Source of the DNA: Bacteroidales bacterium
Lineage (GTDB): Bacteria; Bacteroidota; Bacteroidia; Bacteroidales; P3
Direction of reading: 5' to 3'
Length of the DNA: 64,000 nucleotides
NCBI GenBank assembly: GCA_017550405.1
Contig: JAFZPH010000015.1
Location: 1 to 64,000 of the forward strand
In this document: in pieces, positions 10,028-46,069 of the stretch
Position numbering within the stretch: the stretch's first letter is position 1
Layout of the letters: each line of letters opens with the position of its first letter
Program-made: the position numbers and the translations under genes
The notes under the pieces: generated by a model
The model's database searches: none
What the model was told of the DNA's origin: nothing
The model's input: the letters and a program-made list of their open reading frames with translations, nothing else

Positions 10028-13000
10028 ATGTTGAAAAGAATGTTATCAGTACTGGCACTTAGCTTGCTGCTGGGTGCCGAGATGCAGGCTCAAAAGATTG
10101 TCGACACGTGGGGATTTACCACAGGTGTCGACACCTCATTGTGGATGGACATCACCGGGATGGACTCTACCCTCATCGACGGCCACAACACGACGACGGG
10201 GATGTCGAATGTGTGCAACATCGGGTTCCCCTTTACGTTGGGGGCTACTACCCACACACAGTTCTCGACCAACACCAACGGCACCGTCAGGCTTGGTTCG
10301 GGCATTGCGTCTCCCAGCTCTTACAACCAACCATTGGGGTCGAACATTTCCAACGGCCCCAAGATTGAGCCTTTCGGACGGCGCGGTCGTTACGACGACA
10401 GCTGTTATACCCGCATGGCGTTGCTGGGCGACAGCGGCAGCCGGGTGTTGGTGGTGGAGGCAAGGGTGAAGGAGTACTCCAGCAACCTCTATCCTGGGTA
10501 TTACAGTTACCAGGTGCAACTGTTTGAGACGGGCGGCCTGCGTATTGTATATGGCGATAGCGACAGCACGGGTTATGACGGCACATCGCAAAACGGCGTG
10601 TCGGCAACGCGGGGCAATACTGTTGACAAAGATGTCGTGTTCATTGATTTTGCTACCCACACAGTGTCGCGCTTAGATGTGGCCTGTACGCTGACCAATG
10701 CCGTGGCATCGTGGCCTGAAAGGGGACGCTGGTATATGCTTGCGCCCGACAGCGCCGCATGTCCCTACCCGCCGAGTGTTACTTCCAACAATCAAGACCC
10801 TACGGGCATCTGGTTGCAAAACAGCTACGGAGGACTGGCCGACCTGCGGGTGATGATACCGTCGGCAGGCATCGACACCATCTGGCCGATGGCGGATAGC
10901 TATTTCTTTCTTGGTGGAGGCTTCGACCCCACCACCACCTATTATGGCACTGTGCAAAGCGTATGCGACAGCGGCCGTACCAGCTACCGCACACGCCAGT
11001 TTCAGTTCACCACAGGCTGCGGTCCTGTGATACGCCTGCCGTGGAGCGAAGACTTCGGGACCTCGACCACCACCGCGTGCTGGGATGTGTCGCAGTATAC
11101 CTCTACCAATAAGAAATGGAGACGTGTGGGTAGTGCCATGAGAGGTGGTGCGGCATCATCGACGGAAAACCCCTTCAACGAACACATGGTGTCTCCAGTG
11201 TTTCTCTTGCCCGATTCGGACGGCATCTTCCTCTCTTGGGACTATAAGTCGGAGGAGTTTGTGGGAGCCCCACATGTGGAGGTGCGCCTTGCGCCTTGTG
11301 CCGCCGACGGCACGATAAGCAGCGGGGTGTGGACGACATTGCTAACGCTCGACGACTACGTGGCAAACTATACCCAACAGCATGTTTCTCTCGACCCTTG
11401 GCGTGGAGAGTATGTGAAAGTGGACTTTGCCCTCACTGGGATATGGGGCAAATATGCTTGGGTGGACAATGTGATGCTCCGTCTGCAACAAAGTCCTATT
11501 GCCGAACTGCAAGCACCCACCATTGCCCAGGTGGGCGACAGCGTGAACTATGTTGCCACCATGTCCGAGGGTGTGGATAGCGGAGTGGTGTATTCTTGGC
11601 ATTCTACCCTGCTGAACCAGACTTCGACGGCTGTAGGCGGCTGGTCAGTGGTGTATACGGAGACGGGGATTGACACAATCACCTTGGTGATAACCAATGT
11701 ATACGGGGCTGACACAGTCACCGCCGTGGTGTATGTGGTGGACTGCAACCCCGTCACCGCGCTGCCCTGGGAGGACGGCTTTGCACACACGGACGACTGT
11801 TGGGTGACAAGCGGATGGCAGAAGGAGACGACTTATGCCTTCCACGACGAGGAAAATGCGTACCGCCAGTTTCAAAACGTGATGTATGCATCTACCACGG
11901 GTGCCTACATGCTGTCGCAACCCATCAGCCTTCCCGCCACGGGGATGCACAATATGAAGCTGTGGGTGGAATGTGCCTCGCCTTTGACCGTGCGACTCAG
12001 CCCTACAGCTGACACCGCCATTGCCTCGTTCACCGACACATTGTTCACCGACTTACATTCACGCAACCAATCCGAACTATGGTGGCAGGTGGCCGACCTT
12101 GAGCCTTATGCCGGTCAGACAGTGAGAATAGGCCTGTTCAAAGAGGCCGGACTGCAGGCGTTCGTAAACAGGGTGAAGATAGACTATGATACCCTGCCGG
12201 TGCTGTGGCAGGTGGTGGTGCCATCATTAGGCAGTACCGACTCGACGATAGTGTGCAGCGCAGCGCTACGGCGTGGCTCCACTGACAGCCTGACTGTCAC
12301 ATGGCATTCTACCCTCTTGGACAGCACTTGGGTTGTGAATGGGGATTATTCCATCGGCATCCATTACCCCTTCGGAGGTATGGATACGGTGACCGTGGTG
12401 GCTGCCAACGCATACGGGGCAGACACGGTGACGAAAACGGTGAGGGTTAGCGACTGCAACCCTGCCACTTCCTTGCCCTGGATGGAGGACTTCAGCGACG
12501 GAGCGTTATGCTGGTACACGCCACAGGGCAGCAATTGGGCCACAACCACATGGTCGGGCAACCGATACTTGTACCTCAATGTACTAAATGACACATTGAG
12601 CAACTGGATTTTCTCAAAAGAGATAGTCCTACCAGCGGACACAAACTTGCTGCCACACCTGTTTTGGAGACCCTCCTGGCTTCTCACCTTGGACATTGGC
12701 GTGTATGACCACCTACGGTACAGCGTGATGATAACCACCGACAGCGACTACACCGACACGACGAATTACACCGTTCTTTATACCGACAACTTGAGGCGTT
12801 CCCGGTTCGGCTTCGACGACCTTCTCAGCGCCAGCCTGGCCGTCTATGCCGGACAGCATATCCACATAGCCTTCCGCAGCTATCCCCACCACTTGATACG
12901 CACCGTGAGTGTGCATGACCAATATATCAATATCGACGATGTGCTTATCCGCACCACCGAGGTGCCTGTCCTTTCGGTGACAGCCGACGCCAACAGGTAC

Positions 13001-16000
13001 TATTACGGCGACACCGCCACCTTTACTGCCACCCTTATCGAGGGCAATAGGGCAGGGATTTCTTATACCTGGCACTCAACGCTGCTCGACAGCACACTGA
13101 CCACCACTACGGGAAGCCTTCGTCTCACCTATGGCTTGCTGGACGGCAGCGATACCGTCAGCGTGGTTGTCACCAATGCGTACGGCAGCGATACGGCACG
13201 GGTTGTGGTACGCTCGCAAATGATTACCACTCCGTCCATAACAGGATTTACAGCAGAGGGCAAAGTGTTTAGGCAGGGACTTGACAAGGCCGAGGTGGGC
13301 GACACGGTTGACTATCTGATTACTCGCAACAACTGCATAGCTACAGGAGTGGCCTACAGCCTGCACTCTACTTTGTTGGACACCTCCGTCACGGTGAGCG
13401 CCGCGGCAGAAACCGTCCGCATTCCGTTGGTATATACCATTGAAGGTGTAGACACCCTGACGGCCACCATCGCCAACATCTTCGACACCTCCACCTCTTC
13501 GACTCCTTTGCGATTGATGGTGAGCAACTGCCCAGGTGTCAGCGTGCCTTTCTTTGAAGATTTTGAAGGCATAGGTGTGGAAGACGACCAGATACCCTGT
13601 TGGCCCGGATGGTGGAGACTGTGTAACCTTAGCGACACAAATCATGCAGCCCATCCGGGCGGGACAGCAAGTTTGCACCCGTTGCTTATCTCGCCTCTCA
13701 TCACCCTACCGACTGACACCCTCGGATTGCAGCTCTCGTGGTATAGCCACCCCGCCAATTACTCTTCTACAAGTTTACCTGTCAAGGTATTGATATCACC
13801 CACTGGTGGGAAATACTTTGATGACTTTACAGACACACTGTTTGTGGGGAATGTACCAAATGACGACTACCACGCTGTGCTGCTCGATGATTATCTGGGT
13901 GAGCAGATACGCTTCGCTTTCAATTATAATTGGGGCTACGAATTTTCTATAGACAACATCCGTGTGGACTACGACCGCTCAGCCCCTCAGCTGGGTATTG
14001 ACATGCCGGATACCGTCTACACATACGACAGCCTATCGGTCGTTGCCACGCTTGCCGCAGGGTCGCCACAAGGCTTTGCCTATAGCTTGCACTCCTCTAT
14101 TGGAACCGTTATTGGGACAGGCGACAGTGTGACACTCTTCTATACTAACGTTGGTACCGATACCCTCATCGTTGTCGCCACCAACGATTACGGTTCCGAC
14201 ACTGCTTTGCTGACGGTGGAGGTGCGCAATCACCCCCTTCCGCAGGCGGCTATCAGTGGTCCCGGATTGGTGGAAACAGGCGACACGCTGACGTTGACAG
14301 CCCTTCTTAACAACTGCTCGCAGTATGGGCTGGGCGTAAGTTGGCATTCGTCGCTGACGGGCAATAGCGCGTTCGGCTATCTCTTCCAACAAGTATATAG
14401 CACTGGCGGCATCGACACTGTCACCCTGACGGTGAGCAACCACTTCGGTGCCGATACCGCTATATGGGTGATTAGGGTGCTCGACTGCAGCGGGATAGCA
14501 TTGCCCTATCACGAAGACTTTGAAGAGGTGACTGCCGTGTCGTCATCGACTGTTGGCTATCTGCCTGGTTGTTGGAGCTACAACTGGAATGGCAGCAATG
14601 CAGCCTACGCCCCGCATGTGATTACCACTGGTGGCTACCAATTCCTGAGCGGTATTCCCAACAATGCCCTCCTGCTCCTTGCCGGCAGTGCTACAGGCCA
14701 TGGAAGCCTAGCCGAAGTGGTGTTGCCGCGGTTTGCAGACAGTCTGCAGCACCTCTCTATTGCCTTTGACTATTGGAGCGAGTCGTCCGGCACACTGACA
14801 GTAGGGTATCTGTACGATAACTTGTTCCATGCCGTTGCCACTATCCCCAACCATGGGGGCAATTACCTGCGCGACACCGTCAATTTCGCCTCAGCCTTCA
14901 GCCCCGATGGTCGTATTGCTCTGCACTGGAGCCATGCCACTTCGTATTGGGGTGTGGCGATAGACAATGTGGATGTGTTTTCCGACAACACCATCTATAT
15001 CAATCAACCCGACAGCCTGACGGTCGACAGCATCGATGTCGTCTCTGCACGGGTGTCGTGGGGTGCTGTGACGGGTGCCACTGCCTACCACGTTGTGATG
15101 GACAGTGTGGTGGACACGGTGGTTGGCAGTCGCTCATTCGGCCTCACAGGGCTGGCACCGCATACTACATACACTGTGGGCGTGGCGGCAGTTGTAGGAA
15201 CTGACACCGGTCGCTATGCCACGACCACCTTCACCACCCTCTGTGGTATACGGTTGCCATACTACAACGACTTCAGCCAAGGCAACAATTCCATCGACTG
15301 TTGGACCAATTACCGTACTTCGTCTGAAATCTATCAGCAGCAACTCTCCATCGCTATCGATGTCTATTCGGAATGCCAGATGGCAACACCTGTTATTCAG
15401 GCTCCCGGCAACAGTCTGTTCGTCACTTTTCAGTTGAAGAGGAGAACCTCTTCGCGCGAAGTGAGCCTCATCGTGGGTGCCATGACCGACCCGACGGATG
15501 CCAGTACATTTATTCCTATCGATACCTTTGCAGTGGGCAGTTCATGGACTGAGTGCCAATTCAACACACGCGGTCTTGGTACCACCCCGCTTGCCATTGC
15601 CTTCCGCCCCTACAACTCGTATAATGAACTCCTGATTGACGACCTCCTTATCGAGTCGCCCACTCCATGCGCCAGACTCTTCTCGGTCGAGGCAACGGTG
15701 CTCAGCGCCACTTCGGCAGAGCTCAGCTGGGAGTATGACATCGAGAGCGATTTGCCTATCACAGGGGCTTTAATTACCCTCTACGATCTCACCTCAGGCG
15801 ACACGACCTTGTTCATAGCTCACGGTACTGACACCACGCTGAATGGTCTGCCATTGCTGCATACCTTCAGAGCCGATATCAGCACCCTGTGCGACAGCGC
15901 CACATCCGAAGCGCTCAGTGTCAGCTTCACCCCCCATCCGATGGCATGTGTAGAGTTGCAGGGAGATGATGTCTATGTAACTTCCCAACCCGTACAGAAC

Positions 16001-17719
16001 TCCAACAACTATGGTTATAGCCAGATGCTCTACCCTGCCGACCTCACCGCTTCGGTCGACACGCTCTATGGCATCGCTTTCCTCCGCAGATACTATTACA
16101 CCAACACCGGCGATTCACCCCGCCTCATAGATGTCTATATCGGACAAACGACAACCGACACGCTCACCGCTCCCATCAGTGCCAGCAGCCTCACGTTGGC
16201 AGTGCAGAATTATCCGTTGCAGACCAGCGGTCAGGGTTGGATGATGATACCTTTTTCCACACCTGTGCCGCTCGACGGTGTAAGCAATCTTATTGTCACT
16301 ATCGATGACAATACTGGAGGCGTGGGTTCCATCCCCATAAGTTACGGTGCGCACCACTCCGATGTTGGCAGCATCATCTACTACAACGGATGGCCAGCCG
16401 TCAACGTCGACCCTTATACATTGGGTTTCGTCGTGTCGAGCAGCAGCAACATTCCCGACATACAGCTGCTTGGCCACTGTGTTACCGACCGCTGTTTGCC
16501 ACCTGTCGTCAGCGTGGAGCCCGATACCAACAGCCTCACTGTCGCTTGGACACAACGCGGCAGCGAGAGCCTGTGGCGCGTGGAATACCGCGAGGAGCGC
16601 GACAGCACTTGGATAATGGTGGACAGTGTTGCCAACACTACGTACACCATCATGGGTCTCAATGCCAGCACACGCTATCAGGTACGTGTCGGCTCGGTGT
16701 GCAGCGACACCCATATCATATACAGCGATGTGGTGACAACGGCCACCCTCTGCGGGACTATCGACACCGTGTGGCATCAAGTCTCCGTGACTACAAACCC
16801 CGACGGCACTGCCGCGACATACGGTAGTGGTCGCTACGCCCATGGCGACACTGTGGAGATTGGATTCCATCTGCCTGATACTGCCACCGAGGGCGGGTCC
16901 TGGCAGTTCATTGGTTGGGACGACAACAATTCGACCGACAATCCTCGTATGGTTGTTGTCGTCTCCGACACCCTCTTCACAGCCCTGTTCCAGTGGGTGG
17001 CTGACCCCCCTACATATCGTCTCACTCTCGTCGTGAACGACACCACAATGGGCAGCGTCGGTGGCGATGGAACCTATCTTGACGGAACCCTGGTCACCAT
17101 CGCCGCCATACCCAACGAGGGCTACCATTTCGTCCAGTGGAGCGACAGCGTGACCGATGCTGCCCGCACAATTGTCCTTCACAACGACATCAGCCTCACC
17201 GCCTTCTTTGCGCCTGACACCGTGTGGCATCAAGTCTCCGTGACCACAAACCCCGACGGCACTGCCGCGACATACGGTAGTGGTCGCTACGCCCATGGCG
17301 ACATAGTGGAGATTGGATTCCATCAGCCCGATACTGCGACCGAGGGCGGCTACTGGCAGTTCATCGGTTGGGACGACACCAATTCGACCGACAATCCTCG
17401 TATGGTTGTTGTCGTCTCCGACACCCTCTTCACAGCCCTGTTCCAATGGGTGGCCGACAGCGTAGGGATAGTTGATGTGGAAGGACTCACGAGGTGGGTG
17501 AGCGTCTATCCCAATCCCGCCTCCCACACTGTCATCATTCGTAGCGAAAGAGATTGCACCGTAGCCTTCCTATCGGCTGATGGTCGGGAGGTGATGCGCA
17601 TGGCGTGCCACGCTGGCGACAACCCTGTCGACATCCAACACTTTGCCCAAGGAGTCTATTTCCTCCGCGTAATCGACCTCCACCAGCCTCCCATCAAGCT
17701 CATCGTGACGAGGGAGTAA
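10028..17719 (+). CDS. Giant T9SS-secreted modular adhesin-like protein
   Basis: 2,563-residue surface or secreted protein. A signal peptide (1-22, ending EMQAQ) is followed by an N-terminal beta domain. Then come about six modules that each open with a Cys-containing LPW/LPY-x-x-DF segment (for example DCNPVTALPWEDGF, DCSGIALPYHEDF), typical of cleaved-adhesin/MAM-like jelly-roll domains. These alternate with PKD/Ig-like domains carrying a repeated WHSTLLD-type strand. Two fibronectin type III-like domains follow (near residues 1665-1740 and 2160-2240). Three InlB-type repeats come next, the first and third nearly identical. The last 75 residues are a T9SS type A sorting domain (VSVYPNPASHTVII ... 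GVYFLRVI). Probably exported and attached to the cell surface or released; binding target unknown. It has its own promoter and stands alone. Confidence 0.9.
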   Translation: MLKRMLSVLALSLLLGAEMQAQKIVDTWGFTTGVDTSLWMDITGMDSTLIDGHNTTTGMSNVCNIGFPFTLGATTHTQFSTNTNGTVRLGSGIASPSSYNQPLGSNISNGPKIEPFGRRGRYDDSCYTRMALLGDSGSRVLVVEARVKEYSSNLYPGYYSYQVQLFETGGLRIVYGDSDSTGYDGTSQNGVSATRGNTVDKDVVFIDFATHTVSRLDVACTLTNAVASWPERGRWYMLAPDSAACPYPPSVTSNNQDPTGIWLQNSYGGLADLRVMIPSAGIDTIWPMADSYFFLGGGFDPTTTYYGTVQSVCDSGRTSYRTRQFQFTTGCGPVIRLPWSEDFGTSTTTACWDVSQYTSTNKKWRRVGSAMRGGAASSTENPFNEHMVSPVFLLPDSDGIFLSWDYKSEEFVGAPHVEVRLAPCAADGTISSGVWTTLLTLDDYVANYTQQHVSLDPWRGEYVKVDFALTGIWGKYAWVDNVMLRLQQSPIAELQAPTIAQVGDSVNYVATMSEGVDSGVVYSWHSTLLNQTSTAVGGWSVVYTETGIDTITLVITNVYGADTVTAVVYVVDCNPVTALPWEDGFAHTDDCWVTSGWQKETTYAFHDEENAYRQFQNVMYASTTGAYMLSQPISLPATGMHNMKLWVECASPLTVRLSPTADTAIASFTDTLFTDLHSRNQSELWWQVADLEPYAGQTVRIGLFKEAGLQAFVNRVKIDYDTLPVLWQVVVPSLGSTDSTIVCSAALRRGSTDSLTVTWHSTLLDSTWVVNGDYSIGIHYPFGGMDTVTVVAANAYGADTVTKTVRVSDCNPATSLPWMEDFSDGALCWYTPQGSNWATTTWSGNRYLYLNVLNDTLSNWIFSKEIVLPADTNLLPHLFWRPSWLLTLDIGVYDHLRYSVMITTDSDYTDTTNYTVLYTDNLRRSRFGFDDLLSASLAVYAGQHIHIAFRSYPHHLIRTVSVHDQYINIDDVLIRTTEVPVLSVTADANRYYYGDTATFTATLIEGNRAGISYTWHSTLLDSTLTTTTGSLRLTYGLLDGSDTVSVVVTNAYGSDTARVVVRSQMITTPSITGFTAEGKVFRQGLDKAEVGDTVDYLITRNNCIATGVAYSLHSTLLDTSVTVSAAAETVRIPLVYTIEGVDTLTATIANIFDTSTSSTPLRLMVSNCPGVSVPFFEDFEGIGVEDDQIPCWPGWWRLCNLSDTNHAAHPGGTASLHPLLISPLITLPTDTLGLQLSWYSHPANYSSTSLPVKVLISPTGGKYFDDFTDTLFVGNVPNDDYHAVLLDDYLGEQIRFAFNYNWGYEFSIDNIRVDYDRSAPQLGIDMPDTVYTYDSLSVVATLAAGSPQGFAYSLHSSIGTVIGTGDSVTLFYTNVGTDTLIVVATNDYGSDTALLTVEVRNHPLPQAAISGPGLVETGDTLTLTALLNNCSQYGLGVSWHSSLTGNSAFGYLFQQVYSTGGIDTVTLTVSNHFGADTAIWVIRVLDCSGIALPYHEDFEEVTAVSSSTVGYLPGCWSYNWNGSNAAYAPHVITTGGYQFLSGIPNNALLLLAGSATGHGSLAEVVLPRFADSLQHLSIAFDYWSESSGTLTVGYLYDNLFHAVATIPNHGGNYLRDTVNFASAFSPDGRIALHWSHATSYWGVAIDNVDVFSDNTIYINQPDSLTVDSIDVVSARVSWGAVTGATAYHVVMDSVVDTVVGSRSFGLTGLAPHTTYTVGVAAVVGTDTGRYATTTFTTLCGIRLPYYNDFSQGNNSIDCWTNYRTSSEIYQQQLSIAIDVYSECQMATPVIQAPGNSLFVTFQLKRRTSSREVSLIVGAMTDPTDASTFIPIDTFAVGSSWTECQFNTRGLGTTPLAIAFRPYNSYNELLIDDLLIESPTPCARLFSVEATVLSATSAELSWEYDIESDLPITGALITLYDLTSGDTTLFIAHGTDTTLNGLPLLHTFRADISTLCDSATSEALSVSFTPHPMACVELQGDDVYVTSQPVQNSNNYGYSQMLYPADLTASVDTLYGIAFLRRYYYTNTGDSPRLIDVYIGQTTTDTLTAPISASSLTLAVQNYPLQTSGQGWMMIPFSTPVPLDGVSNLIVTIDDNTGGVGSIPISYGAHHSDVGSIIYYNGWPAVNVDPYTLGFVVSSSSNIPDIQLLGHCVTDRCLPPVVSVEPDTNSLTVAWTQRGSESLWRVEYREERDSTWIMVDSVANTTYTIMGLNASTRYQVRVGSVCSDTHIIYSDVVTTATLCGTIDTVWHQVSVTTNPDGTAATYGSGRYAHGDTVEIGFHLPDTATEGGSWQFIGWDDNNSTDNPRMVVVVSDTLFTALFQWVADPPTYRLTLVVNDTTMGSVGGDGTYLDGTLVTIAAIPNEGYHFVQWSDSVTDAARTIVLHNDISLTAFFAPDTVWHQVSVTTNPDGTAATYGSGRYAHGDIVEIGFHQPDTATEGGYWQFIGWDDTNSTDNPRMVVVVSDTLFTALFQWVADSVGIVDVEGLTRWVSVYPNPASHTVIIRSERDCTVAFLSADGREVMRMACHAGDNPVDIQHFAQGVYFLRVIDLHQPPIKLIVTRE
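16763..17005 (+). repeat. 243-bp direct repeat, copy 1
   Basis: Nearly identical at DNA level to 17216-17458. It encodes an 81-residue InlB-type repeat (VWHQVSVTTNPDGTAATYGS...). The few differences include LPDT/QPDT and GSW/GYW. Confidence 0.9.
17216..17458 (+). repeat. 243-bp direct repeat, copy 2
   Basis: Second copy, exactly 453 bp downstream of copy 1 and in the same frame, separated by a diverged repeat of the same fold. Near-identity at synonymous sites points to recent duplication or gene conversion. Confidence 0.9.
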
Positions 17720-32677: not shown

Positions 32678-35600
32678 TCACAAGGTAATTGACGTTTCCG
32701 TCGTGGCAGCCCGGAGCAGCGGATTGCCGAGGTTGGCTGGCGACACGGCCAGGCATTGCACCGTGGCGGCGGGCAGGTGGAAACGCCCTTGGCGGTCGGT
32801 TACTACGGTGTACATCAGCGTGTGGGTGCCGGCGGGAAGTTCTTTGATGTATATGTCGAGGCAGTTGACAGGTTCGGAGGGCGAGGCGGCAACAGACCCA
32901 AGGTTGGCGTCGAGGCTCTTGACTTCTATCCAGTTTCTGTTTTCAGCCGTAGTGGCGACTACACTGACTTGGCTGTGCGAGGCGAAGCAGGCGGCCATGG
33001 GGGCACGCAGATAGAGGCGGTCCATGGGGCGGCTGAGGGTGAGGGTCAGCTTAATGGTGAGTTCGCCGATGGTCGAGGTGGTGTCGGCTTTGTCCGACGT
33101 GTTGATTATCTCGCGGTTGAGGGTGATGAGGGGCTCTGCATTCTGCAGCGGTGTTTGGTCAGGGTTCCCAAGAGACGAGAGGGCGGGTTGTTCGGTTGGG
33201 AGCAGATGGCGGGCCACAAGGCGGGCGCGGTGCATGTCGTCCCAATGGGTGGTGGGGGCTATGTAGCGAATGCGCTGCCGCACTTGGTCGGCCAGGGCGG
33301 TGTCGTGCAGCACCTCTTCGAATATGTCGATGTAGAGGTTTATCAGCAGCGAGTTGTGGTCGAAGTATTTCCAGCGGCGGCCTTGTTCGGGATGGGCGGT
33401 GTCGTAGACGGATGACTGGACGATGTTCTTGGCCATTTGCCGTGCCAATGCCGTGTCGCCGCTGCGGTAAAGGTAGGGGATGACCCATTGGTCGGGCTTG
33501 TTCTTCAGAATGTTGGCATGTAGGCTGTCGCGCATGGCGTAGTAGGCGGTGTCGAGAGGATATTGGGCAAAGTGGCGGCGAAGGGTTATCCATTGGGCGG
33601 CGTTGTTGGTTGTTTTGGGGAAGTGTTTCCAGTATTGGAACATCAGACTGTCGGTGGTCTCTACCGCCCGCTTGATGTTGAAGGCGGCGGGGATGGTGAA
33701 GTGGGGACAGTGTTGTTGCAGTTGCATGATGATGTTGAGGTTATGGATGGCGGAGCTTTCGTTGAAGAGGGACTTCTGACCCCGGATGCAGGGCCAGCCG
33801 CCGGAGGGCAGTTGGGCGTCGGTGAGCACCTGTACCAGCGAGTCGGCGTTGGGGCGGTTGAAGACGACGGCATAATATAGTGAGTCGAAGAGATTGTCGA
33901 TGTCGTCGGGCTTGGCGCGGTCGTAGGGGTAAAACATGCCGCGGTAACGGCTGGAGAGGGTGGGGTAGTCCTTGGCGACGGAGGGGTAGGCGTTGACAAG
34001 CAGGCGGGGGTGGCGCAACAGGGGTAGGGTGGAGGTCTGGGCATCGAGGACTATGCTGTTGTGCAGCGGGTCGCCGATGGCGAAGGTGAAGGTGCGGGAT
34101 TTCGGCACCAGCGGGAGGAGAGTGCGAGGTGCCTGGATGGGGAATTGCACCGTGGTGGCTCCGGCAAGCAGGGTTTTGGTTTCTGGTTTCCCTTTTAGTT
34201 TGGCACCGTTGTACATACGGACGGCAAGGCCGTTGGTGGTGGTGCCGTCCATGCGGTCGACGCGGAGGGCTATTGCGGTGCTGTCGCCTGCATAGAGGAA
34301 CGGCGGCACGTTGGGCATGAGCATGATGTCGCGGTAAGTATCGAAGAGGTTGGCGCGTTTGACGAAGGTGCCGTCACCCGACATGGCTATGAGGCTGAGC
34401 CACCAGCGGGCGAGCCTTTGGGGAGCGTTGAAACGGATGTCGACAATGCCGTTGCGGTCGCTGTGCAGGCGGCCAAACCAGGGACCGTAGGGCGAGAGGT
34501 TGTTTCGGATGGTGCCTTGGGGTTGCGAGAGGTTGTTCACTTTGCCCCAAGATATGTCGGGAATGATTGACGCTGACGCACAATAAAGAACATCGTAGCC
34601 GTGTGTGCCTACCGAGAGAAGCGCCATGACCCGACGCTGGTCGAGGTAACTAACGTTCTGCATACGTTGACGGTAGTTGTTTGACAGACTCAAGCGGTAG
34701 AAAGGTTTCTGCTTCTCTTTAGTCTGATTGCCAATTGTAAGTCTACTGCGATTGTCTCTGTACTCACTGCCGATAAACTCGTATCGGGGAGAATAGTGAT
34801 AGCGATATGCCTGTTGGGGGTAAAAACAATGTTGGCCAACATGTTCGAGATGGTTGATGGCTTCGTCGAAGGCGGTGAGAGCCATGATGGACTGCACGGG
34901 GTTGCCGAGGCTGTCGGTGACACGCAGCCGCCAGTGGACGGGGGCACCGGCAAAGAGCTTGTGAAGGCGGAAGCCGGAGTCGGCCGGGGTAAGGTTGAGG
35001 GCTTCGGGTTCGAGCCATTGCAACTTCAATTGGGGTACAGGTTGCAGTATGTCTACACCGGTCGAGCCGGAAAAGCGTTGCCCTTGGTGGTAGGCAAGGA
35101 TGGAGATGCATATTCTGTCCGACCATTGTTTCTGGATGGGGAGGGCGATATGGGTGAAGCCACAGTCGAGGCGCAGGTGGCTGAGCATGACGATGTTTTC
35201 ACCGCAGCTGATGAGCAACATGGCCGAAATCTTCCCTGCTGAGCCCACACGCAGGCGCAGGGTGTCGCCCGGGTGGTATTGTTTTTTCTCGGTCGAGGCA
35301 AAGAGTGTCAGGCTGTCGAGCGGCATGGGGGCGTTGAAACCGAGGTGCGACACTTGCAGGGTGTCGGGGTGCAGGTGAGGATTGGCTGAGGAGAGGATGA
35401 GACGCAGGTGCCCGTCGGGCAGCTGGATGGGCGGAAGGAGGCTGGAGAGCGGCACGAAACTGGATGTGGCGGGGATGGATATTTCGCCCTGCCACACGCG
35501 GGAGGGGTTTGAGGGTATGGGCGTTTCTGATGCTGTGACGGTCTCGATGGTGAGGAGTGCGGTGGCGGACAATGGACTGTTGTCGAGGTTTTTGCAGCTG

Positions 35601-38032
35601 ACATAGATGTCATTGAGGTTGTCGATATAACGTGAGTAATAGTCGCCTGTAATATTGTTGGTTGAAGAACTGTATTGGTTGATTGAGAAAGAACCAGTAT
35701 AGTCGCCCACGGCTATGGAGATGCTTTCTTTGACCGTTTCACCCGTTGGGTCGGTTGCGGTTACGGTGAAGAGGTATTCTGTATATTCGCCGTCGAGATA
35801 GGGGAGGAAGTCGTATTTGACGGGGGTGAATTGGAAAGTGAAGTCGCCTGCCTGTGCACCGTGGTTGTCCGGCTGGGTTGACAGTTCGCCGGAGCTGACG
35901 ACGAACGAGCCCCCGTTGTGTTCGGAGCCGACATTTTTCATCCAAGGGGCGAAACCGAAAGATTGGGTCAGGGTATATGTGACCGAAGAGGAAGCCACCG
36001 CAGAGCCGTTGCGGGAGGTGAGCCTGCCTTGTATGGTGACGGGTTGGCCGTAGAGGTGAGTGTCGGCGGTGGTGTTGAGCGATAGCGAGAGGGTGGGGAG
36101 GGTGTAGTTGTCGACCGAGAAAGAGGCGGTTCCCATATTGTTGCCATCGCGGTCGTAGGCTATAAGGTACAGATGGTTGTCGTAGTTTTTGTTGGCATTG
36201 AGCACTTGCGGCAGGATGAAGCTGCCTTCTGCCCAGCCCATGTTGTTGGTGGTGAGTTGCAGGGAGGTGATGCTATCGGAGTAGTAGTCTGTCGACAAGG
36301 TGATTCTGACGCGGTGGTTGGGAACCGGCTGGTTGGTTTTGGGGGTGCTGCGTTGCACCATGGCGGTGAATCGGACGGTGTCGGAGAAGCGGTAGACATG
36401 GGCATTGAGGAAGAAGGAAACCAGCTTGTCGGAGTCATCGTCTTCCCCGTCAGGGTCAATCTGCCCGCGACTGACAATGTTATATGTCTGGGCACCGAGT
36501 TTGACGGAGATGGGGTGGCCTTGATGGGTGATGCTGTAGACGGGGTAGGTGTACTCCCCAATGGGCATGAGGGGGCTGAAATTGAAGCGGCCGAGGGTGT
36601 CGGTGAGTGTGGTGAGGGTAAGGCTGTCGGAGTCGGGATTTTTAGTGTAATAGTATTTCCCCTTCATCGTGACAGGGATGTCGGGGATGGGCTGACCTGT
36701 TTCAATATTCATCACAAGACCTTGGCCGTGGGACTGGAAGATGGGTACGATGGTAGTCGTTTGGCAGGAGAATGTGTAGTGGTAGACTTCTGGCAGGCAG
36801 CTGTCGGGGATGTCGAGAGTGGTAGGAAAGGGCATTTCGGAGACAATCATGGAGTAGTCGCCCACGGTGAGTGAGGGGAAATGGTAGCGTTGTTTGTGTT
36901 GGCTGCCGGCCGTGGGTTTGTGCACATGCACGGTGAGGCTGTGCAAGGCGGGTTGCGAGAGGGCATAGCGAAGTTTTTTGTTGTAGGGCAAGGTGTCGAA
37001 AGCTTTGCTGATGGAGGGCAGTATGCGGAGATAGAGGGTGGTGTCGGTGTCGCCGGTGTAGGTGAAGAAACACCCGCTGCCCGGGGCCACAATGGGGCCG
37101 ACATCCAGTCTGGCCGAGGGCTGGGCGCGAAATATGATGTGGTTGTTTTTGATGTAGGCGTTGGCGTAGTGGTCGATGAATGTGCTAAGTTCGCGGCAGA
37201 GGGTGTGCCATTGTGTGGAGTTGGTGTCGGTGCCGTTATGGATAAGGTATGTCGCCACCTCTTGCAGTATGGCGAGTTTGGTCAGGGTGGCATTGCCTTG
37301 GGGCTTGGGCATGGAGACCAGGATGAAGGGGTTGCAAAGGGCGTAGTAGAGGCTGTCGCTGTAGACAAGCGTGGAGCCGTTGAAAAGGAGGTCGGAGCCT
37401 ACGATGTTGTGGATGGCGTCGTAGGAGGCTGCTTCGTAGAGCGTGAGGGCTGAGTAGTCGTTCAGGGTGTCGTGGGTGGCGAGGAAGTCGTAGTCTTTCA
37501 TCTTTATGCTTTGCAGCAGTGTGGCGGAAGTGGAAAGAGCGGCTTGGCTATGGAACAGGATGCAGGTGGACAGTTTCTCGTTGCACCATTGGCTGTAAAC
37601 GGTGTCGTCGGGGTTGTTGGGACACGGGAGGTCTTGATTGTCAAATCTATTTTGGTTGCGGTTGCGCAGGACTTGGGCATACGTGCCTGCCAGCAGGCTG
37701 TGGCAAAGCGCCTTTTCGGGAGGGGCGAGGTGTGGGAGGGTGTGACGGAGGAGGGCTTCGGCATTGGTGTTCACGGGCAGTTGCTTGCCCACAGTGGCCA
37801 TGCCGCAGGCTGCACGCAGAAGGTCGTAGGACCGCCCTTCGGCTTTGGCGCAGGTGTATTCCTGTTGCAGGAGTGCATAGGCATCGGCGTAGGCTTTTGC
37901 TTTGACGAGGGAGTCGATGACGGAAGCCGTCGGAGCCTGTGATGGGGTGCCGTCAGCGGTCGTGTCGTACGGGGTCTGCGCAACCAGGGTCTGTGTGCAG
38001 AGGAGGATAAGGAGGAGGATGTTTCGTTTCAT
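32678..38032 (-). CDS. Alpha-2-macroglobulin-family large secreted protein
   Basis: 1,784 aa. Signal peptide 1-19 (LCTQTLVAQ), a helical N-terminal region (about 30-150), a string of MG-type beta-sandwich domains, and a carboxypeptidase-like beta domain (GLVMNIETGQPIPDIPVTMKG). The A2M core follows (FNAPQRLARWWLSLIAMSGDG and MPNVPPFLYAGDSTAIALRV), then a helical toroid (TDAQLPSGGWPCIRGQ). The thioester CxEQ motif of trapping macroglobulins was not found, so covalent trapping is unlikely. No PBP1C gene is adjacent, unlike in many bacteria. The start at 38032 is chosen for its signal peptide; a longer frame upstream would run antisense through the next gene. Confidence 0.85.
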   Translation of the reverse strand: MKRNILLLILLCTQTLVAQTPYDTTADGTPSQAPTASVIDSLVKAKAYADAYALLQQEYTCAKAEGRSYDLLRAACGMATVGKQLPVNTNAEALLRHTLPHLAPPEKALCHSLLAGTYAQVLRNRNQNRFDNQDLPCPNNPDDTVYSQWCNEKLSTCILFHSQAALSTSATLLQSIKMKDYDFLATHDTLNDYSALTLYEAASYDAIHNIVGSDLLFNGSTLVYSDSLYYALCNPFILVSMPKPQGNATLTKLAILQEVATYLIHNGTDTNSTQWHTLCRELSTFIDHYANAYIKNNHIIFRAQPSARLDVGPIVAPGSGCFFTYTGDTDTTLYLRILPSISKAFDTLPYNKKLRYALSQPALHSLTVHVHKPTAGSQHKQRYHFPSLTVGDYSMIVSEMPFPTTLDIPDSCLPEVYHYTFSCQTTTIVPIFQSHGQGLVMNIETGQPIPDIPVTMKGKYYYTKNPDSDSLTLTTLTDTLGRFNFSPLMPIGEYTYPVYSITHQGHPISVKLGAQTYNIVSRGQIDPDGEDDDSDKLVSFFLNAHVYRFSDTVRFTAMVQRSTPKTNQPVPNHRVRITLSTDYYSDSITSLQLTTNNMGWAEGSFILPQVLNANKNYDNHLYLIAYDRDGNNMGTASFSVDNYTLPTLSLSLNTTADTHLYGQPVTIQGRLTSRNGSAVASSSVTYTLTQSFGFAPWMKNVGSEHNGGSFVVSSGELSTQPDNHGAQAGDFTFQFTPVKYDFLPYLDGEYTEYLFTVTATDPTGETVKESISIAVGDYTGSFSINQYSSSTNNITGDYYSRYIDNLNDIYVSCKNLDNSPLSATALLTIETVTASETPIPSNPSRVWQGEISIPATSSFVPLSSLLPPIQLPDGHLRLILSSANPHLHPDTLQVSHLGFNAPMPLDSLTLFASTEKKQYHPGDTLRLRVGSAGKISAMLLISCGENIVMLSHLRLDCGFTHIALPIQKQWSDRICISILAYHQGQRFSGSTGVDILQPVPQLKLQWLEPEALNLTPADSGFRLHKLFAGAPVHWRLRVTDSLGNPVQSIMALTAFDEAINHLEHVGQHCFYPQQAYRYHYSPRYEFIGSEYRDNRSRLTIGNQTKEKQKPFYRLSLSNNYRQRMQNVSYLDQRRVMALLSVGTHGYDVLYCASASIIPDISWGKVNNLSQPQGTIRNNLSPYGPWFGRLHSDRNGIVDIRFNAPQRLARWWLSLIAMSGDGTFVKRANLFDTYRDIMLMPNVPPFLYAGDSTAIALRVDRMDGTTTNGLAVRMYNGAKLKGKPETKTLLAGATTVQFPIQAPRTLLPLVPKSRTFTFAIGDPLHNSIVLDAQTSTLPLLRHPRLLVNAYPSVAKDYPTLSSRYRGMFYPYDRAKPDDIDNLFDSLYYAVVFNRPNADSLVQVLTDAQLPSGGWPCIRGQKSLFNESSAIHNLNIIMQLQQHCPHFTIPAAFNIKRAVETTDSLMFQYWKHFPKTTNNAAQWITLRRHFAQYPLDTAYYAMRDSLHANILKNKPDQWVIPYLYRSGDTALARQMAKNIVQSSVYDTAHPEQGRRWKYFDHNSLLINLYIDIFEEVLHDTALADQVRQRIRYIAPTTHWDDMHRARLVARHLLPTEQPALSSLGNPDQTPLQNAEPLITLNREIINTSDKADTTSTIGELTIKLTLTLSRPMDRLYLRAPMAACFASHSQVSVVATTAENRNWIEVKSLDANLGSVAASPSEPVNCLDIYIKELPAGTHTLMYTVVTDRQGRFHLPAATVQCLAVSPANLGNPLLRAATTETSITL

Positions 38033-38112
38033 TTGCCGAGGGTGTTTTTGTTTACTGCAATTAGAGCCACTTTTGTGCCGAAAAGTGACATGGGGTGTTT
38101 CGTTTCGGGGTG

Positions 38113-38120
38113 CAAAGATA
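38113..38120 (-). promoter_or_regulatory. -7 box (TATCTTTG) for the macroglobulin gene
   Basis: TATCTTTG lies 81 nt before the ATG at 38032, and shares the short divergent gap with the DUF4835 promoter. Confidence 0.6.
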
Positions 38121-38183
38121 GGTTTTTTTTGCGTTTTTGTGGGTTTTGAGCGGGCTTTTAACTTTTGTTCCGAAAAAAAAGCG

Positions 38184-38191
38184 TATATTTG
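38184..38191 (+). promoter_or_regulatory. -7 box (TATATTTG) for the DUF4835 gene
   Basis: It ends 9 nt before the ATG at 38201, so the leader would be only a few bases. This supports the ATG at 38201 over the longer frame from 38165. Confidence 0.65.
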
Positions 38192-38200
38192 CAGGGTGTT

Positions 38201-39127
38201 ATGATAAGAAGAGTTGCGCTTATAGTGCTGTTTGTGTTGAGCTTGGGTGCCGTGTGCGCTCAGGAGTTCCGTTGCGCTGTGTCGGTGAACCACCAGAAAT
38301 TGATGTCGACGACGCAGCAGTTTGAGTCGACGGACAAGCGCGTTTTTGAGAGTATGAAGCAGGCGTTGGAGGATTTTGTGAATTCGCGCAAGTGGACGAC
38401 GCTGGAGCTGCAGCAGCACGAGAAGATCGACTGCTCGATGAGCTTGATTTTGAACGAGCGGTCGAGCCTGACGGATTTCAAGGGGCAGCTGTCGGTGCAG
38501 ATGCGCAGGCCGGTGTACAATTCGGGCTACACGACGGGTCTGTTCAATTATATCGAGTCGGCGGACTTCATGTTTTCGTATAACGAGAGCCAGCCGCTTG
38601 ATTTCGACCCGAACACGTTCTACGGCAACCTGTCGTCGGCGGTGGCGTACTACCTGTATGTGATGCTGGGCATTTATTTCGACAGTTTCGGCCCCAACGG
38701 GGGCGAGCAGTTCTATGAGGTGGCGCGGACGATCTGCCAGACGGCGGACGCGCAGCAGCAGTATAAGGGCTGGAGCGGCCGCGAGAGCCAGAAGGCCCGC
38801 TACTGGTTTATGGAGAACCACACGAACGGCGCCTACGCGGCGTTGCACGATGTGTATTACAAGTATCACCGACTGGGGCTGGACATGATGACGAAAGACC
38901 AGACGCAAGCGCGCAACAATATCGTCGAGGCGCTGGAACAGCTGCAGCAGGTGCATAGGACCCGCTCCGGTCTGCTGTCGGTGCAGCAGTTTGTGGATGT
39001 GAAGATTTCGGAGCTGGTGAGCATTTTCTCCCCCGCTCCGGCCGACGAGCAGCAGCGGGTGTATGACTTGGTGAAGGAAATCAGTCCCATCAACGCCGCC
39101 AAGCTGCAGAAAAAGGAGAGTAGGTGA
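38201..39127 (+). CDS. DUF4835 (PorD-like) secreted protein
   Basis: 308 aa; signal peptide 1-20 (ending GAVCAQ). The family features are visible: FRCAVSVNHQKL, a long beta/helix region, and SAVAYYLYVMLGIYFDSFGPNGGEQFY, then RYWFMENH. Restricted to Bacteroidetes and in some annotations called PorD because of its association with T9SS organisms; its biochemical role is not established. The presence of several T9SS substrates in this window fits that association. Divergent from the macroglobulin gene. Confidence 0.8.
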   Translation: MIRRVALIVLFVLSLGAVCAQEFRCAVSVNHQKLMSTTQQFESTDKRVFESMKQALEDFVNSRKWTTLELQQHEKIDCSMSLILNERSSLTDFKGQLSVQMRRPVYNSGYTTGLFNYIESADFMFSYNESQPLDFDPNTFYGNLSSAVAYYLYVMLGIYFDSFGPNGGEQFYEVARTICQTADAQQQYKGWSGRESQKARYWFMENHTNGAYAALHDVYYKYHRLGLDMMTKDQTQARNNIVEALEQLQQVHRTRSGLLSVQQFVDVKISELVSIFSPAPADEQQRVYDLVKEISPINAAKLQKKESR

Positions 39128-41224: not shown

Positions 41225-43621
41225 TTATTTCTTGATTAGCTTCGAGGTGTGGCCGCCGGCCTTGATGAAGTAGAAGCCGGAGGGGAGGCCGTCGAGGCTG
41301 ATGGAGGGAGCCGACGGGGAGACCTGACAGCGGAGCAGCAGGCGGCCGGTCATGTCGATGATGTCGACCTGTGTGGATGCGGTGCCTTCGAGGCCGTGGA
41401 GGCTGACGGAGGTCGTGGCGGGGTTGGGATGGATGGTAAAGCGGGGATTGTCGACATCGCTGATGGATACGGGGTAGTTGGTCTCATAGCAGCCCAGGTC
41501 TATCTTGCCTTGGCGGCAGCGGATGTGCTGCTCCATGTCGCCGTCGCGGATGCTCTCCTGTATGCGCTCACCGGCATTGATGCAGATGGAGCCTTTGTCC
41601 AAGTGCCAGTCGGCAGCGGTGCAGTCGGCAGGTCCGCGTGTGACGACGGGATTGATGAAGGCGGGGCCGTCGGGGGTGTTGCCGGTGTTCAGCAGCAGGC
41701 AGGTGCTGTCGACAAGTGCGGAGTCGCAGTCGAAGGCGCAGTAGCGGACGGAGGTGTCGCGGAGTTCGCTGACGATACGCAGGCATGTGTCGTTGTTCCA
41801 GACGATGTTGTTGACGAGGCTGCACTGTTTGTTGGCAAGCCGCAGAGCGAGGCCGCGGTTGGAGACGATGGTGCTGTTGACGATGCGGCTGTTGTCGAGG
41901 CTCAGGGCGATGCCTTCGTTGTTGTTGACGATGCTCTGGCGCATGATGGCATAGTTCATGGCGCAGACCACGGGCGCGGTGCAGTTCTCGATGGTGATGC
42001 TGCGGGCGAGGCCGTCGGCAAGATAGACTGCGCGGCCGCTGTCGCTGCTGCAGTTGCGTATTTTGATGTGCCGCAGGGAGAATTCCTTGGTGAATTCGAC
42101 GGCATTGCCTTCGGGGCTGTAGCCGTTCTGCAGGACGATGCCGTTGAGGGTGATGGAATTGGAGCTGAGGTTACCGCCCGTCACTTTGAGGGCGCCACGG
42201 CGGTTCATGCCGTCGATGACGGTGGGGCGCAGGATGAAGTCGCGCTGGTTGAGGTCGGTCTCGTTGCCAGCAAAGCCTCCGTAGATGTTGCAGCTGTTTT
42301 TGAGGGTGTAGGCGAAGTCGGCGGTGGTGTCGCCGTAGTAGATGCCTTCTTTCATCCAGATGTTGCGGTCGACGAGTTTGGAGAGTTTTGTGGCTGCAAT
42401 GATGTTGCTGCGGGCCTGCTGCCACGAGGTGCCGTCGCCGTTGCCGTCGGGCGAGACATGGAAGGTCTCCAGGTGCCCGTCCCATCCCGAGGGGATGATG
42501 TTGATAACCATGTCGTGGCTGGAGGTGAAGCCCTGCATAGTGTTGAGGCTGTAGAACCCGTCGGCGTAGCCTCCCCATCCCCAGTTGAAATGGTATTGGT
42601 TGCTGTTGTTGTAGCCGTCGAGAACGAAGGCGTGACCACCTTCGGGGCCGGAACCTGCATACTCGATGGGCCGTCTGTTGTCAATCTCGTTGATAATCAT
42701 CTGTCGCCATTTTACATCGTCGTTCACGTCGGAGCGCGAGTAGTATTCGGCATCGGTGTAGCCGAAGTGCATGAGTCCTTCGGGGACGAGATAGTTGTGC
42801 GAGCCGCTCCCTGTGGTATGTCCGGCGTGCTGGTATTCCATCTTCACAACCACCCCGCAGTAATAGCAGAGTCGGGAGACCATGTCGATTTGGGCAGCGC
42901 TGGAACTGCGGCGTATGCGGTTGGGCATGAGGGTGTAGTCGAAGTCGGTGGTGTCGAAGTCGACGCTCAGTATTCCGTATGCCGTATGGAGGTAGCTCTT
43001 CTTCCCGAATCCGCGTGAGGGATAGCCGTAGTATCTGATTATTTGTGCCATGGCTGTGGCCACGCAGCCCACCACGACATGCGAGCCGTTCATGACGGGA
43101 CAGTATTGGTTGTAGCCGGAGCCTTGCTCCCAAGTCGATTCAATCAGGTAGCTGTCGGCTTTGGGCTGAGGGATGTCCTCTCGGCTGGACAGCAGGCTTT
43201 TCCATTCTTCCAGGCGTTCGGGATTGTCGGGGGCGTTGGCTTCGATGCCGGCACTGATTTCGGTCGCGTACCCATCGAGCCATGCCTTCATGTTGTCGGG
43301 ACAACGGTTGTCGTCGAAGCTTCCGTTCATTGAATAGCCCAGGATGGGGACGCTGCGGTTGTCGGCACTTACGATGACGAACCCCTGCTGGTGCAGGTTG
43401 AAGATGTAGAAGCAGGGTGTGGCTGCCGACCCGTATCGGTAGGTGGTATAAAGTGTGAGGGTGTCGCTGTTTTTCATCAGTCCTTTCTGCTGCAGGAAAT
43501 GTGTGCCAGCGGTCTTGGCGGTGCCGCTGTCGACAGGTCCTGCATTGAGGATGTGGATGGAAAACAAGAAGATGACCAGGAGTGTGAGGCTCCTTTTAAG
43601 GTAATGCATGATAGCGTTCAT
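41225..43621 (-). CDS. C10 cysteine protease (streptopain-like) with beta-helix and T9SS tail
   Basis: 798 aa secreted zymogen. Signal peptide (about 1-27), a propeptide-like domain (AGTHFLQQKG ... GFVIVSADNRSVPILGYS), then the peptidase with nucleophile Cys186 in VVGCVATAMAQI and His330 in EGGHAFVLDGY, plus FNWGWGGYADGFY. Residues about 375-700 form a right-handed beta-helix with N-S-T/N-R repeats (NSTIVSNRG, NNIVWNN). The last 75 residues are a T9SS type A sorting domain (FTIHPNPATTSVSL ... GFYFIKAGG). Close in plan to interpain or periodontain-type proteases. The start at 43621 is chosen for the signal peptide; 43609 is possible. Confidence 0.9.
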   Translation of the reverse strand: MNAIMHYLKRSLTLLVIFLFSIHILNAGPVDSGTAKTAGTHFLQQKGLMKNSDTLTLYTTYRYGSAATPCFYIFNLHQQGFVIVSADNRSVPILGYSMNGSFDDNRCPDNMKAWLDGYATEISAGIEANAPDNPERLEEWKSLLSSREDIPQPKADSYLIESTWEQGSGYNQYCPVMNGSHVVVGCVATAMAQIIRYYGYPSRGFGKKSYLHTAYGILSVDFDTTDFDYTLMPNRIRRSSSAAQIDMVSRLCYYCGVVVKMEYQHAGHTTGSGSHNYLVPEGLMHFGYTDAEYYSRSDVNDDVKWRQMIINEIDNRRPIEYAGSGPEGGHAFVLDGYNNSNQYHFNWGWGGYADGFYSLNTMQGFTSSHDMVINIIPSGWDGHLETFHVSPDGNGDGTSWQQARSNIIAATKLSKLVDRNIWMKEGIYYGDTTADFAYTLKNSCNIYGGFAGNETDLNQRDFILRPTVIDGMNRRGALKVTGGNLSSNSITLNGIVLQNGYSPEGNAVEFTKEFSLRHIKIRNCSSDSGRAVYLADGLARSITIENCTAPVVCAMNYAIMRQSIVNNNEGIALSLDNSRIVNSTIVSNRGLALRLANKQCSLVNNIVWNNDTCLRIVSELRDTSVRYCAFDCDSALVDSTCLLLNTGNTPDGPAFINPVVTRGPADCTAADWHLDKGSICINAGERIQESIRDGDMEQHIRCRQGKIDLGCYETNYPVSISDVDNPRFTIHPNPATTSVSLHGLEGTASTQVDIIDMTGRLLLRCQVSPSAPSISLDGLPSGFYFIKAGGHTSKLIKK

Positions 43622-43660
43622 AATGCTTGATATCTGTATTAAATTTTTAAGTTCAAACTG

Positions 43661-43668
43661 CAAAATTA
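43661..43668 (-). promoter_or_regulatory. -7 box (TAATTTTG) for the C10 protease
   Basis: TAATTTTG on the minus strand, about 40 nt before the chosen ATG. Confidence 0.6.
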
Positions 43669-44511: not shown

Positions 44512-45387
44512 TTACCGTATGAGGGTGACGGTGCCTTTCAGCTGGTGCTTGATCTGCTCCGAGTCGGTGTACTGAATCATGTAGACGTATGTGGACTGTG
44601 GGAGACGCCGTCCTTGATAGGTGCCGTCCCAAGACTGATTGATATCATAGGAGCGGTAGACCATGTGTCCCTGGCGGTTGAAGATGAGGATGCGGTAATC
44701 GCTGATGGCTGTGTGCGGTTGGGTCAGACCCACTTTGAAGGTACTGATTGCGGGGTCGTCGGAGCCAGGGGCAAAGGCATTGGGTATCCACAGGATGGTG
44801 TCCTGGAGCGGATTGCCGGAAGAGCTTTTCGCTGCGGGCGATGTCGGTTCGGCAGCAGGTGCTTTGGTGTCGGACTCGATGTCGGCCAACTGCGCGGGTT
44901 CCTCGGTTTGTGGCACGGGGTTGATATCCTTCCCGATGGTTGCAGCCGGGGTGGGAGCGGCCACCGGTGCTGCAGCTATGGGTTCGGCGACGGCCTGTGT
45001 GCGCTGGATTTTAGGCATGGCGGCTGGCTGAGCGGCAGGAACAGTGACGGCAGCGGCTGTGGCTTTTGACGGAGCGGGCTCGCTAACGGCTGCAGGACGC
45101 GTGGCAGCGGGTTCGGACGTGATGGTGGGCTGCACCTCGTCGGGTGAGGTCACTGCTGCGGGCTGGTTTTGTGCAACAATGGGCAGTGGGTCAGCCTGCA
45201 GGGGAGCGGCCTCCTGTCGGGGGATAAGATACAAAGCTGCGGCTACGATAACGGCCACAAGTGCAAATGCTCCGGCAGCCCCTTTGGCGAGGCGGCGGCG
45301 TATGGCACGATGGCGCATTGTTTCCTGTATTTTCTCCCATACCTCGGGGTCGGGTTGGGACGTGTAGTTCTTCAGATTTGTTTTCAT
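44512..45387 (-). CDS. Anti-sigma-like transmembrane protein with T9SS type B (CHU_C) domain
   Basis: 291 aa in three parts. Residues 1-36 are a short charged N-terminus (PDPEVWEKIQETMRHRAIRRR) like the cytoplasmic head of small transmembrane anti-sigma factors. Residues 37-55 form one membrane helix. Residues 57-195 are an Ala/Pro-rich, probably extended, linker. Residues 197-291 are a complete gliding-motility C-terminal (CHU_C, T9SS type B) domain: WIPNAFAPGSDD, YRILIFNRQGHMVY, SWDGTYQGRRLPQSTYVYMIQYT, KGTVTLIR. Its start overlaps the sigma-factor stop by 4 nt. It could hold the sigma factor and sense T9SS activity or the cell envelope. No zinc-type anti-sigma motif is present, so that role is inferred from operon position and topology. 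Confidence 0.75.
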   Translation of the reverse strand: MKTNLKNYTSQPDPEVWEKIQETMRHRAIRRRLAKGAAGAFALVAVIVAAALYLIPRQEAAPLQADPLPIVAQNQPAAVTSPDEVQPTITSEPAATRPAAVSEPAPSKATAAAVTVPAAQPAAMPKIQRTQAVAEPIAAAPVAAPTPAATIGKDINPVPQTEEPAQLADIESDTKAPAAEPTSPAAKSSSGNPLQDTILWIPNAFAPGSDDPAISTFKVGLTQPHTAISDYRILIFNRQGHMVYRSYDINQSWDGTYQGRRLPQSTYVYMIQYTDSEQIKHQLKGTVTLIR

Positions 45388-45935
45388 ACCGTTGGGATTC
45401 TATTTTTAAGTTTCTTTTTCAATATATTACGGGCTCTTGTCAGCGAGCTGCGAACCGTCGATTCGTTCTGCTTCAGCTCCTTGGCAATGGCCTTGATGTC
45501 CATCTCATCCACTTCGAACATGTTGAATACTAGTCTGTAGTAGGGCGGAAGGCTTTGGATGGCGTTGATGATTTGCTCCATCGAATAGGGAGTGTCGTCT
45601 TCGCGGTCGTCCGGTTCTTCCTCCGGCAGGTATTCGTCCATGGCATTGAGGTCGTAGTATTGTAGTTGTTTGCGGCGTTTAAGGTAGTTGATGCAGAGCC
45701 GTGTCATTATTTGACCCATCCATGATTCGAGGGCTAAGGGGTTGGTCAGTTTTTCGATGTTTTCAAAGACCTTGATGATACCGTCGTGGAGCAGGTCCTG
45801 TGCCTCGTCGCGCGAGTGGGTGTAGCGCATACACAATCCGAGCATCTTTGGCGCGTAAAGCTCATAAAGTTTCTTCTGAGCTAAGGGGTTTTTGCGCTTA
45901 CATCCTTCTACAAGTTGTTCCAATTCGGTTGTCAT
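45384..45935 (-). CDS. ECF-type RNA polymerase sigma factor
   Basis: 183 aa. Region 2 is at residues 20-90 (AQKKLYELYAPKMLGLCMRYTHSRDEAQDLLHDGIIKVFENI, DLLHD core) and region 4 at 118-175 (INAIQSLPPYYRLVFNMFEVDEMDIKAIAKELKQNESTVRSSLTRARNILKKKL, helix-turn-helix). An acidic linker (EEEPDDREDDTP) joins them. It recruits RNA polymerase to its own promoter set, probably controlled by the overlapping membrane protein downstream. The target promoters are unknown. ECF factors linked to T9SS control (SigP with PorX/PorY) are described in Porphyromonas; whether this is the counterpart is not shown. Confidence 0.9.
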   Translation of the reverse strand: MTTELEQLVEGCKRKNPLAQKKLYELYAPKMLGLCMRYTHSRDEAQDLLHDGIIKVFENIEKLTNPLALESWMGQIMTRLCINYLKRRKQLQYYDLNAMDEYLPEEEPDDREDDTPYSMEQIINAIQSLPPYYRLVFNMFEVDEMDIKAIAKELKQNESTVRSSLTRARNILKKKLKNRIPTV

Positions 45936-46069
45936 ACGCCCTTATGACACACAGCGTCCATTTTGCTGCAATTTTTTAACTCTTTTTATGATTTTTTTTT
46001 GTTTCGACCTTGCTGCGATGAGTGAGTGGGGTAGGAAAATAGCGTCATAGTGTTATCGTATATGTCGGA

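Follow-up and report, generated by a model that had tools for sequence, protein, structure and literature searches.

In a 64,000-nucleotide stretch of the genome of a gut or rumen bacterium of the order Bacteroidales (assembly GCA_017550405.1, contig JAFZPH010000015.1, positions 1 to 64,000; hereafter, the window), the gene of an ECF sigma factor overlaps the gene of a single-pass membrane protein with a type B sorting domain of the T9SS at its C-terminus. In our opinion, these two proteins probably represent a sigma/anti-sigma pair built on the plan of the Dma family, in which the C-terminal beta-barrel has been replaced by a sorting domain engaging the T9SS in competition with its cargo, and in which the sigma factor drives cargo genes together with its own operon. 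A search of open-licence papers brought up no anti-sigma factor described as bearing a T9SS sorting domain, and to our knowledge little is known about the matching of T9SS cargo synthesis to export capacity in Bacteroidota outside the PorXY-SigP system of P. gingivalis. With a sorting domain placed on the anti-sigma factor and T9SS cargo as the predicted targets of the sigma factor, a direct link from export to transcription becomes testable.

Anatomy of the gene pair and of its sorting domain

Both genes lie on the minus strand. The sigma factor (183 aa, ORF at 45384-45935) matches the profiles Sigma70_r2 (3.6e-13), Sigma70_r4_2 (4.2e-13) and TIGR02937 (88.8 bits). By its context it is a candidate member of the ECF21/Das-like class: its gene lies upstream of the anti-sigma gene, and it falls into one tree with sigma factors preceding barrel-type anti-sigma factors. 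The anti-sigma-like protein (291 aa, ORF at 44512-45387), recognised by PF13585, TIGR04131 and the homology of its head, starts within the 4-nt ATGA overlap (45384-45387) that also holds the stop codon of the sigma gene. Translational coupling across this overlap is likely, and the distance between the sigma and anti-sigma genes has a median of -1 nt in 135 pairs. The original prediction had described two such overlapping frames and, in the second one, a charged head, a single helix, an Ala/Pro linker and a complete CHU_C domain; all of these were recovered, with the boundaries given below.

The cytoplasmic head (residues 1-36; 45280-45387, minus strand) carries the motif KNYxxQPDPxVWxxIxxTLxxR in an alignment of 11 sequences, where residues P12, D13, V16, W17, I20, R31 and R32 are invariant. 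In an AlphaFold2 model of the 291-aa protein, also built from 11 sequences, residues 14-36 of the head form a helix of moderate certainty (block pLDDT of about 49-67). A hydropathy peak marks the membrane helix at residues ~38-57 (45217-45276, minus strand), modelled as helical at 40-52. It is followed by a disordered, Ala/Pro-rich tether (residues 58-195; 44803-45216, minus strand) of 138 residues with 43% Ala+Pro, for which the model gives no structure and a pLDDT below 50 nearly throughout; the tethers of barrel-type proteins are longer (median 240). A cleavable Sec signal peptide was found to be absent by inspection, as a head of 36 residues precedes the helix and no conserved cleavage site follows it. 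No PorP/SprF gene adjoins the pair, and neither RNA families nor tRNAs were found in the 64-kb window.

The last part of the protein (residues 196-291; 44515-44802, minus strand) is the CHU_C, or T9SS type B, sorting domain. Its comparison with TIGR04131, on which the original prediction had been staked, gave a match of 47.8 bits (cut-off 35) that covers profile positions 3-85 of 85 within the last 91 residues and ends exactly on the last residue of the protein; PF13585 matches with 49.9 bits (cut-off 27). Among the 17 places of the genome recognised by TIGR04131, this is the second best. The domain is modelled as a confident Ig-like sandwich (block pLDDT 83-96) and retains the conserved blocks usual for type B CTDs. 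In published work, the secretion of proteins with such domains was shown to depend on five conserved motifs (PMC12618676).

The fold of this domain is common outside the T9SS, and in a Foldseek search with the AlphaFold2 model, generic PKD- and FNIII-like domains rank first, while chain D of 8gl8, the SprA-PorV-RemZ T9SS translocon, takes rank 14 (TM 0.56 by target length, E 5e-3). Such a ranking would also suit an ordinary Ig-like periplasmic domain that binds a ligand without any contact with the T9SS. We consider this explanation very improbable. The type B blocks and the exact C-terminal end have been kept, and the distribution of the domain among genomes speaks against it as well. SprA is present in 140 of the 148 genomes sampled in the order, and all eight genomes devoid of it contain neither a CHU_C domain nor GldM; a sigma partner could be classified in four of these eight, always as a barrel, a number too small for a stand-alone test. 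Conversely, GldM was found in each of the nine tested genomes that possess the pair, and the genome of the window itself encodes SprA, GldM and three PorP-family proteins. Moreover, the anti-sigma protein at locus L155 (G088) has in the corresponding position a tail similar to a type A CTD (24.3 bits; cut-off, 27), possibly a third kind of C-terminal module.

Relation to Dma anti-sigma factors and alternation with the beta-barrel

Proteins of the Dma family consist of an N-terminal anti-sigma domain, a membrane helix, a long disordered tether and a C-terminal beta-barrel, and their genes are adjacent to that of an ECF21 sigma factor (PMC13088901). This barrel-ended plan was genetically shown to belong to anti-sigma factors in Bacteroides and Phocaeicola (PMC13088901; PMC9308784): the loss of dma1 or dma2 acts via the cognate sigma factor (PMC13088901), and a related pair, M0N98_03761/03760, was studied in P. 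vulgatus (PMC9308784). In all these systems, as well as in EcfO/Reo, the sigma gene adjoins that of the anti-sigma factor, as it does in the window. Their common plan has a sigma-binding head in the cytoplasm, one helix in the inner membrane and, beyond the tether, a C-terminus directed to the outer membrane. The protein of the window shares with Dma the N-terminal sigma-binding domain (here by homology), the single helix and the long disordered tether, but carries a type B sorting domain of the T9SS at the end where Dma has an outer-membrane beta-barrel. Because the barrel is missing, the protein is not a member of the Dma family but a variant with its first three parts, and we describe it as a Dma-like anti-sigma factor in which a sorting domain stands in place of the barrel.

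The homology of the heads was established with a profile made solely from barrel-type proteins, with the membrane helix excluded. At E<1e-3, this profile picks up 58 of the 62 heads of the CHU_C type, compared with 1 of 1240 shuffled heads, and the motif P(P/D)xxVWxxIxxxL is common to the heads of both types. The anti-sigma role of the 291-aa protein is supported by this homology, and by homology with Dma its head would be expected to bind the sigma factor.

Relatives were searched with the sigma factor, and the gene behind each hit was then read. Within the genus, a protein with a membrane helix and a CHU_C domain follows the sigma gene at 27 of 27 loci examined, the fetched set of a search that covered ten further genus genomes as well. 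Among 109 loci selected in the same way from the rest of the order, the partner is of the CHU_C type in 25 and an outer-membrane beta-barrel in 73, the remaining 11, among them L155 with its type A-like tail, being short, cut or unclassified. The 25 CHU_C loci outside the genus span 20 families, including the window's own family by way of another genus. The original prediction had allowed that the pairing might be unique to this genome; it occurs at all the genus loci examined and in 19 families of the order beyond the window's own. In the rest of the class, the nearest sigma factors are usually accompanied by barrels or by short proteins that share this head, and in one case by a CHU_C partner. 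As the CHU_C profile was grown iteratively, a few members from outside the genus (e.g., L046 and L149) lie below the Pfam cut-off. Eleven named loci, mostly from rumen and gut Bacteroidales MAGs, were not counted as independent because they had been retrieved with the CHU_C protein itself.

It might be supposed that the protein is not an anti-sigma factor at all but a T9SS cargo with an odd signal anchor, lying by chance beside a sigma gene. Its sorting domain is indeed complete, and neighbouring bacterial genes frequently overlap. Nevertheless, the conservation of the pairing across 20 families, the conserved head of 36 residues ahead of the helix and the homology of this head to genetically established anti-sigma factors leave such a supposition hardly any credibility.

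In a tree of 129 sigma factors, the type of the partner is strongly clustered, with 6 changes by parsimony versus an average of 43 after shuffling; the deep branches of this tree are weak, and the well-supported ones force only one switch between barrel and CHU_C. The Dma architecture, described recently, is a modular one, ending in an outer-membrane barrel in some lineages and in a T9SS signal in others.

Promoter motif and predicted regulon

A pattern GCAACAAAA-N12/13-GTC(T/A)(A/T) was found upstream of the sigma gene in many members of the genus, and its version in the window is GCAGCAAAATGGACGCTGTGTGTCATA (45943-45969, minus strand). The first pattern used for searching, GCAACAAAA-N12/13-GTC, gave just two sites in the window's own genome, neither of them before a plausible target, and it was replaced because the promoter of the sigma gene itself reads GCAGC...GTCATA. 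The second pattern, GCAGCAAAA-N7-TGTGTGTCATA, was adjusted to match the sigma promoter together with the upstream regions of two CHU_C (type B) genes. Its exact match at 45943-45969, against 0.01 expected in the window, is predicted to be an ECF promoter recognised by the sigma factor itself.

With up to three mismatches allowed, this pattern occurs at seven sites in the genome and at six in that of the nearest relative, and the reversed pattern used as a control at none in either genome. The seven sites precede the sigma operon, five complete genes of T9SS cargo and one gene cut by a contig end; four of the sites are independent of the fitting. The complete targets are two proteins with type B domains, of 948 aa (47.8 bits) and 785 aa (35.8 bits), and three with type A domains, of 435 aa (27.5 bits), 800 aa (35.6 bits) and 1575 aa (30.1 bits), all of them above the cut-offs of TIGR04131 or TIGR04183. 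The truncated one resembles a family of ~930-980 aa whose members end in a type B domain in relatives. The sorting domain of the 948-aa protein is 40% identical to that of the anti-sigma-like protein. Domains of type B occupy 17 places in the genome and those of type A 106, about 123 in all. With ~2600 genes assumed, the finding of cargo in five of five cases corresponds to p of about 2e-7, with the reservation that two of these cases had contributed to the pattern. As the motif is common to the sigma factor's own promoter and to those of its targets, the sigma factor presumably reads these promoters. In six other genomes of the genus (G003, G006, G017, G020, G025 and G029), diverged versions of the motif again lie in front of cargo genes of type B or A, and of the sigma gene where it was sought there, with a minority of sites located before other genes or resembling chance matches.

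A motif of a related ECF type, GCAACYWTT-N14-GTCTTA, often precedes T9SS cargo even where the best-matching anti-sigma protein ends in a beta-barrel, which means that the link with cargo is independent of the sorting domain, being older or wider. In genomes of other families of the order (G069, G082, G096, G122 and G152; loci L283-L322), this motif is commoner than in the control. A contrast of the regulons in CHU_C-type and barrel-type genomes gave no separation, as cargo follows the related motif in both; the genomes compared hold several sigma paralogues, and no claim is based on this contrast.

Several details of the promoters may be added. Across much of the genus, the GTC box lies ~9-11 nt before the ATG of the sigma gene (45936-45969, minus strand, in the window; loci L018-L045), and from this spacing the sigma mRNA may be leaderless. 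For the cargo targets, the distance from the motif to the start is about 30-280 nt. In the nearest relative, one predicted type A target (L251; G026:C18:39600-48500) is split into two ORFs, perhaps because the gene is broken or was misassembled.

Possible coupling of cargo synthesis to secretion

According to the proposed mechanism, the tethered sorting domain would engage outer-membrane parts of the T9SS, either the SprA translocon or a shuttle of the PorP/SprF type, and would compete there with real cargo. The tether would relay the state of these parts to the head, and the head would hold or free the sigma factor, which, once freed, would transcribe a group of T9SS cargo genes along with its own operon. 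In this scheme, engagement may either free or hold the sigma factor. The cell may in this manner read export activity to set the amount of cargo. That the pair forms a secretion-coupled circuit, where a type B signal on a tether competes with cargo and cargo synthesis follows export capacity, is a tentative proposal to which we give a little less than an even chance.

The original prediction had interpreted the pair as a sensor of the secretion state. The part of it concerning the T9SS has been strengthened, because the motif stands before cargo genes and because the sampled genomes lacking SprA and GldM have no CHU_C domain. Its strict form, in which secretion itself is sensed, has been weakened, because the related motif precedes cargo even in genomes with a barrel as the best partner.

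A simpler arrangement should be weighed here, namely a static anchor in the outer membrane. Proteins with type B CTDs bind PorP/SprF-type barrels and stay anchored on the cell surface (PMC9143113), and the domain could merely dock the anti-sigma factor to one of the three PorP-like proteins of this genome, so that two pieces would rebuild what Dma does in one; the pair would then sense envelope distance, stress or vesiculation rather than T9SS traffic. The alternation of barrel and CHU_C on related sigma factors agrees with this arrangement, as does the control of vesiculation by Dma1 and Dma2 (PMC13088901). The predicted regulon, however, consists of T9SS cargo and not of envelope-stress genes, an indication that T9SS activity is relevant to the system, and we regard a static anchor as rather unlikely, though deserving of attention.

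The proposed secretion-coupled circuit can be compared with several known systems. FlgM is a soluble anti-sigma factor exported by a type III system. In FlgM/FliA, the anti-sigma factor bears an export signal of the very machine that the sigma factor supplies with cargo, and the window pair is proposed to work alike, but the proteins are non-homologous, and the window protein is T9SS-related and would remain tethered in the membrane instead of being exported. The targets differ from those of the Dma-type systems, which are vesiculation, PUL or O-antigen genes, whereas T9SS cargo is predicted here.

In the PorA-PorXY-SigP system of P. gingivalis, the T9SS-CTD protein PorA has its place upstream of SigP, an ECF sigma factor controlling T9SS genes (PMC7712824). 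A T9SS CTD protein is linked to an ECF sigma factor there, as in the window pair, but PorA is a surface protein acting via a two-component system, while in the window the CTD sits on the anti-sigma factor itself; in addition, SigP is directed to the T9SS machinery and the sigma factor of the window, by prediction, to cargo. In Flavobacterium psychrophilum, ECF-type promoters before T9SS genes and one sigma/anti-sigma pair were reported for SM6, whose targets are mainly T9SS components and for whose anti-sigma factor no sorting domain is described in the consulted parts of that paper (PMC9723704).

Among the other genes of the window, one near the pair (41225-43663, minus strand) encodes a T9SS cargo protein, namely a cysteine peptidase of the C10 family that bears a type A sorting domain and a propeptide of the I69 inhibitor type; this gene is not preceded by the promoter motif. 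A 2563-aa protein encoded at 10028-17719 (plus strand) combines a type A sorting domain with fn3, PKD and InlB-like repeats and is probably T9SS cargo as well. A caspase-domain protein (PF00656, 106 bits) is encoded at 794-2362 (plus strand), and an ORF of 2092 aa at 32678-38956 (minus strand) corresponds to a bacterial alpha-2-macroglobulin-like protein, the true start of which is probably further downstream.
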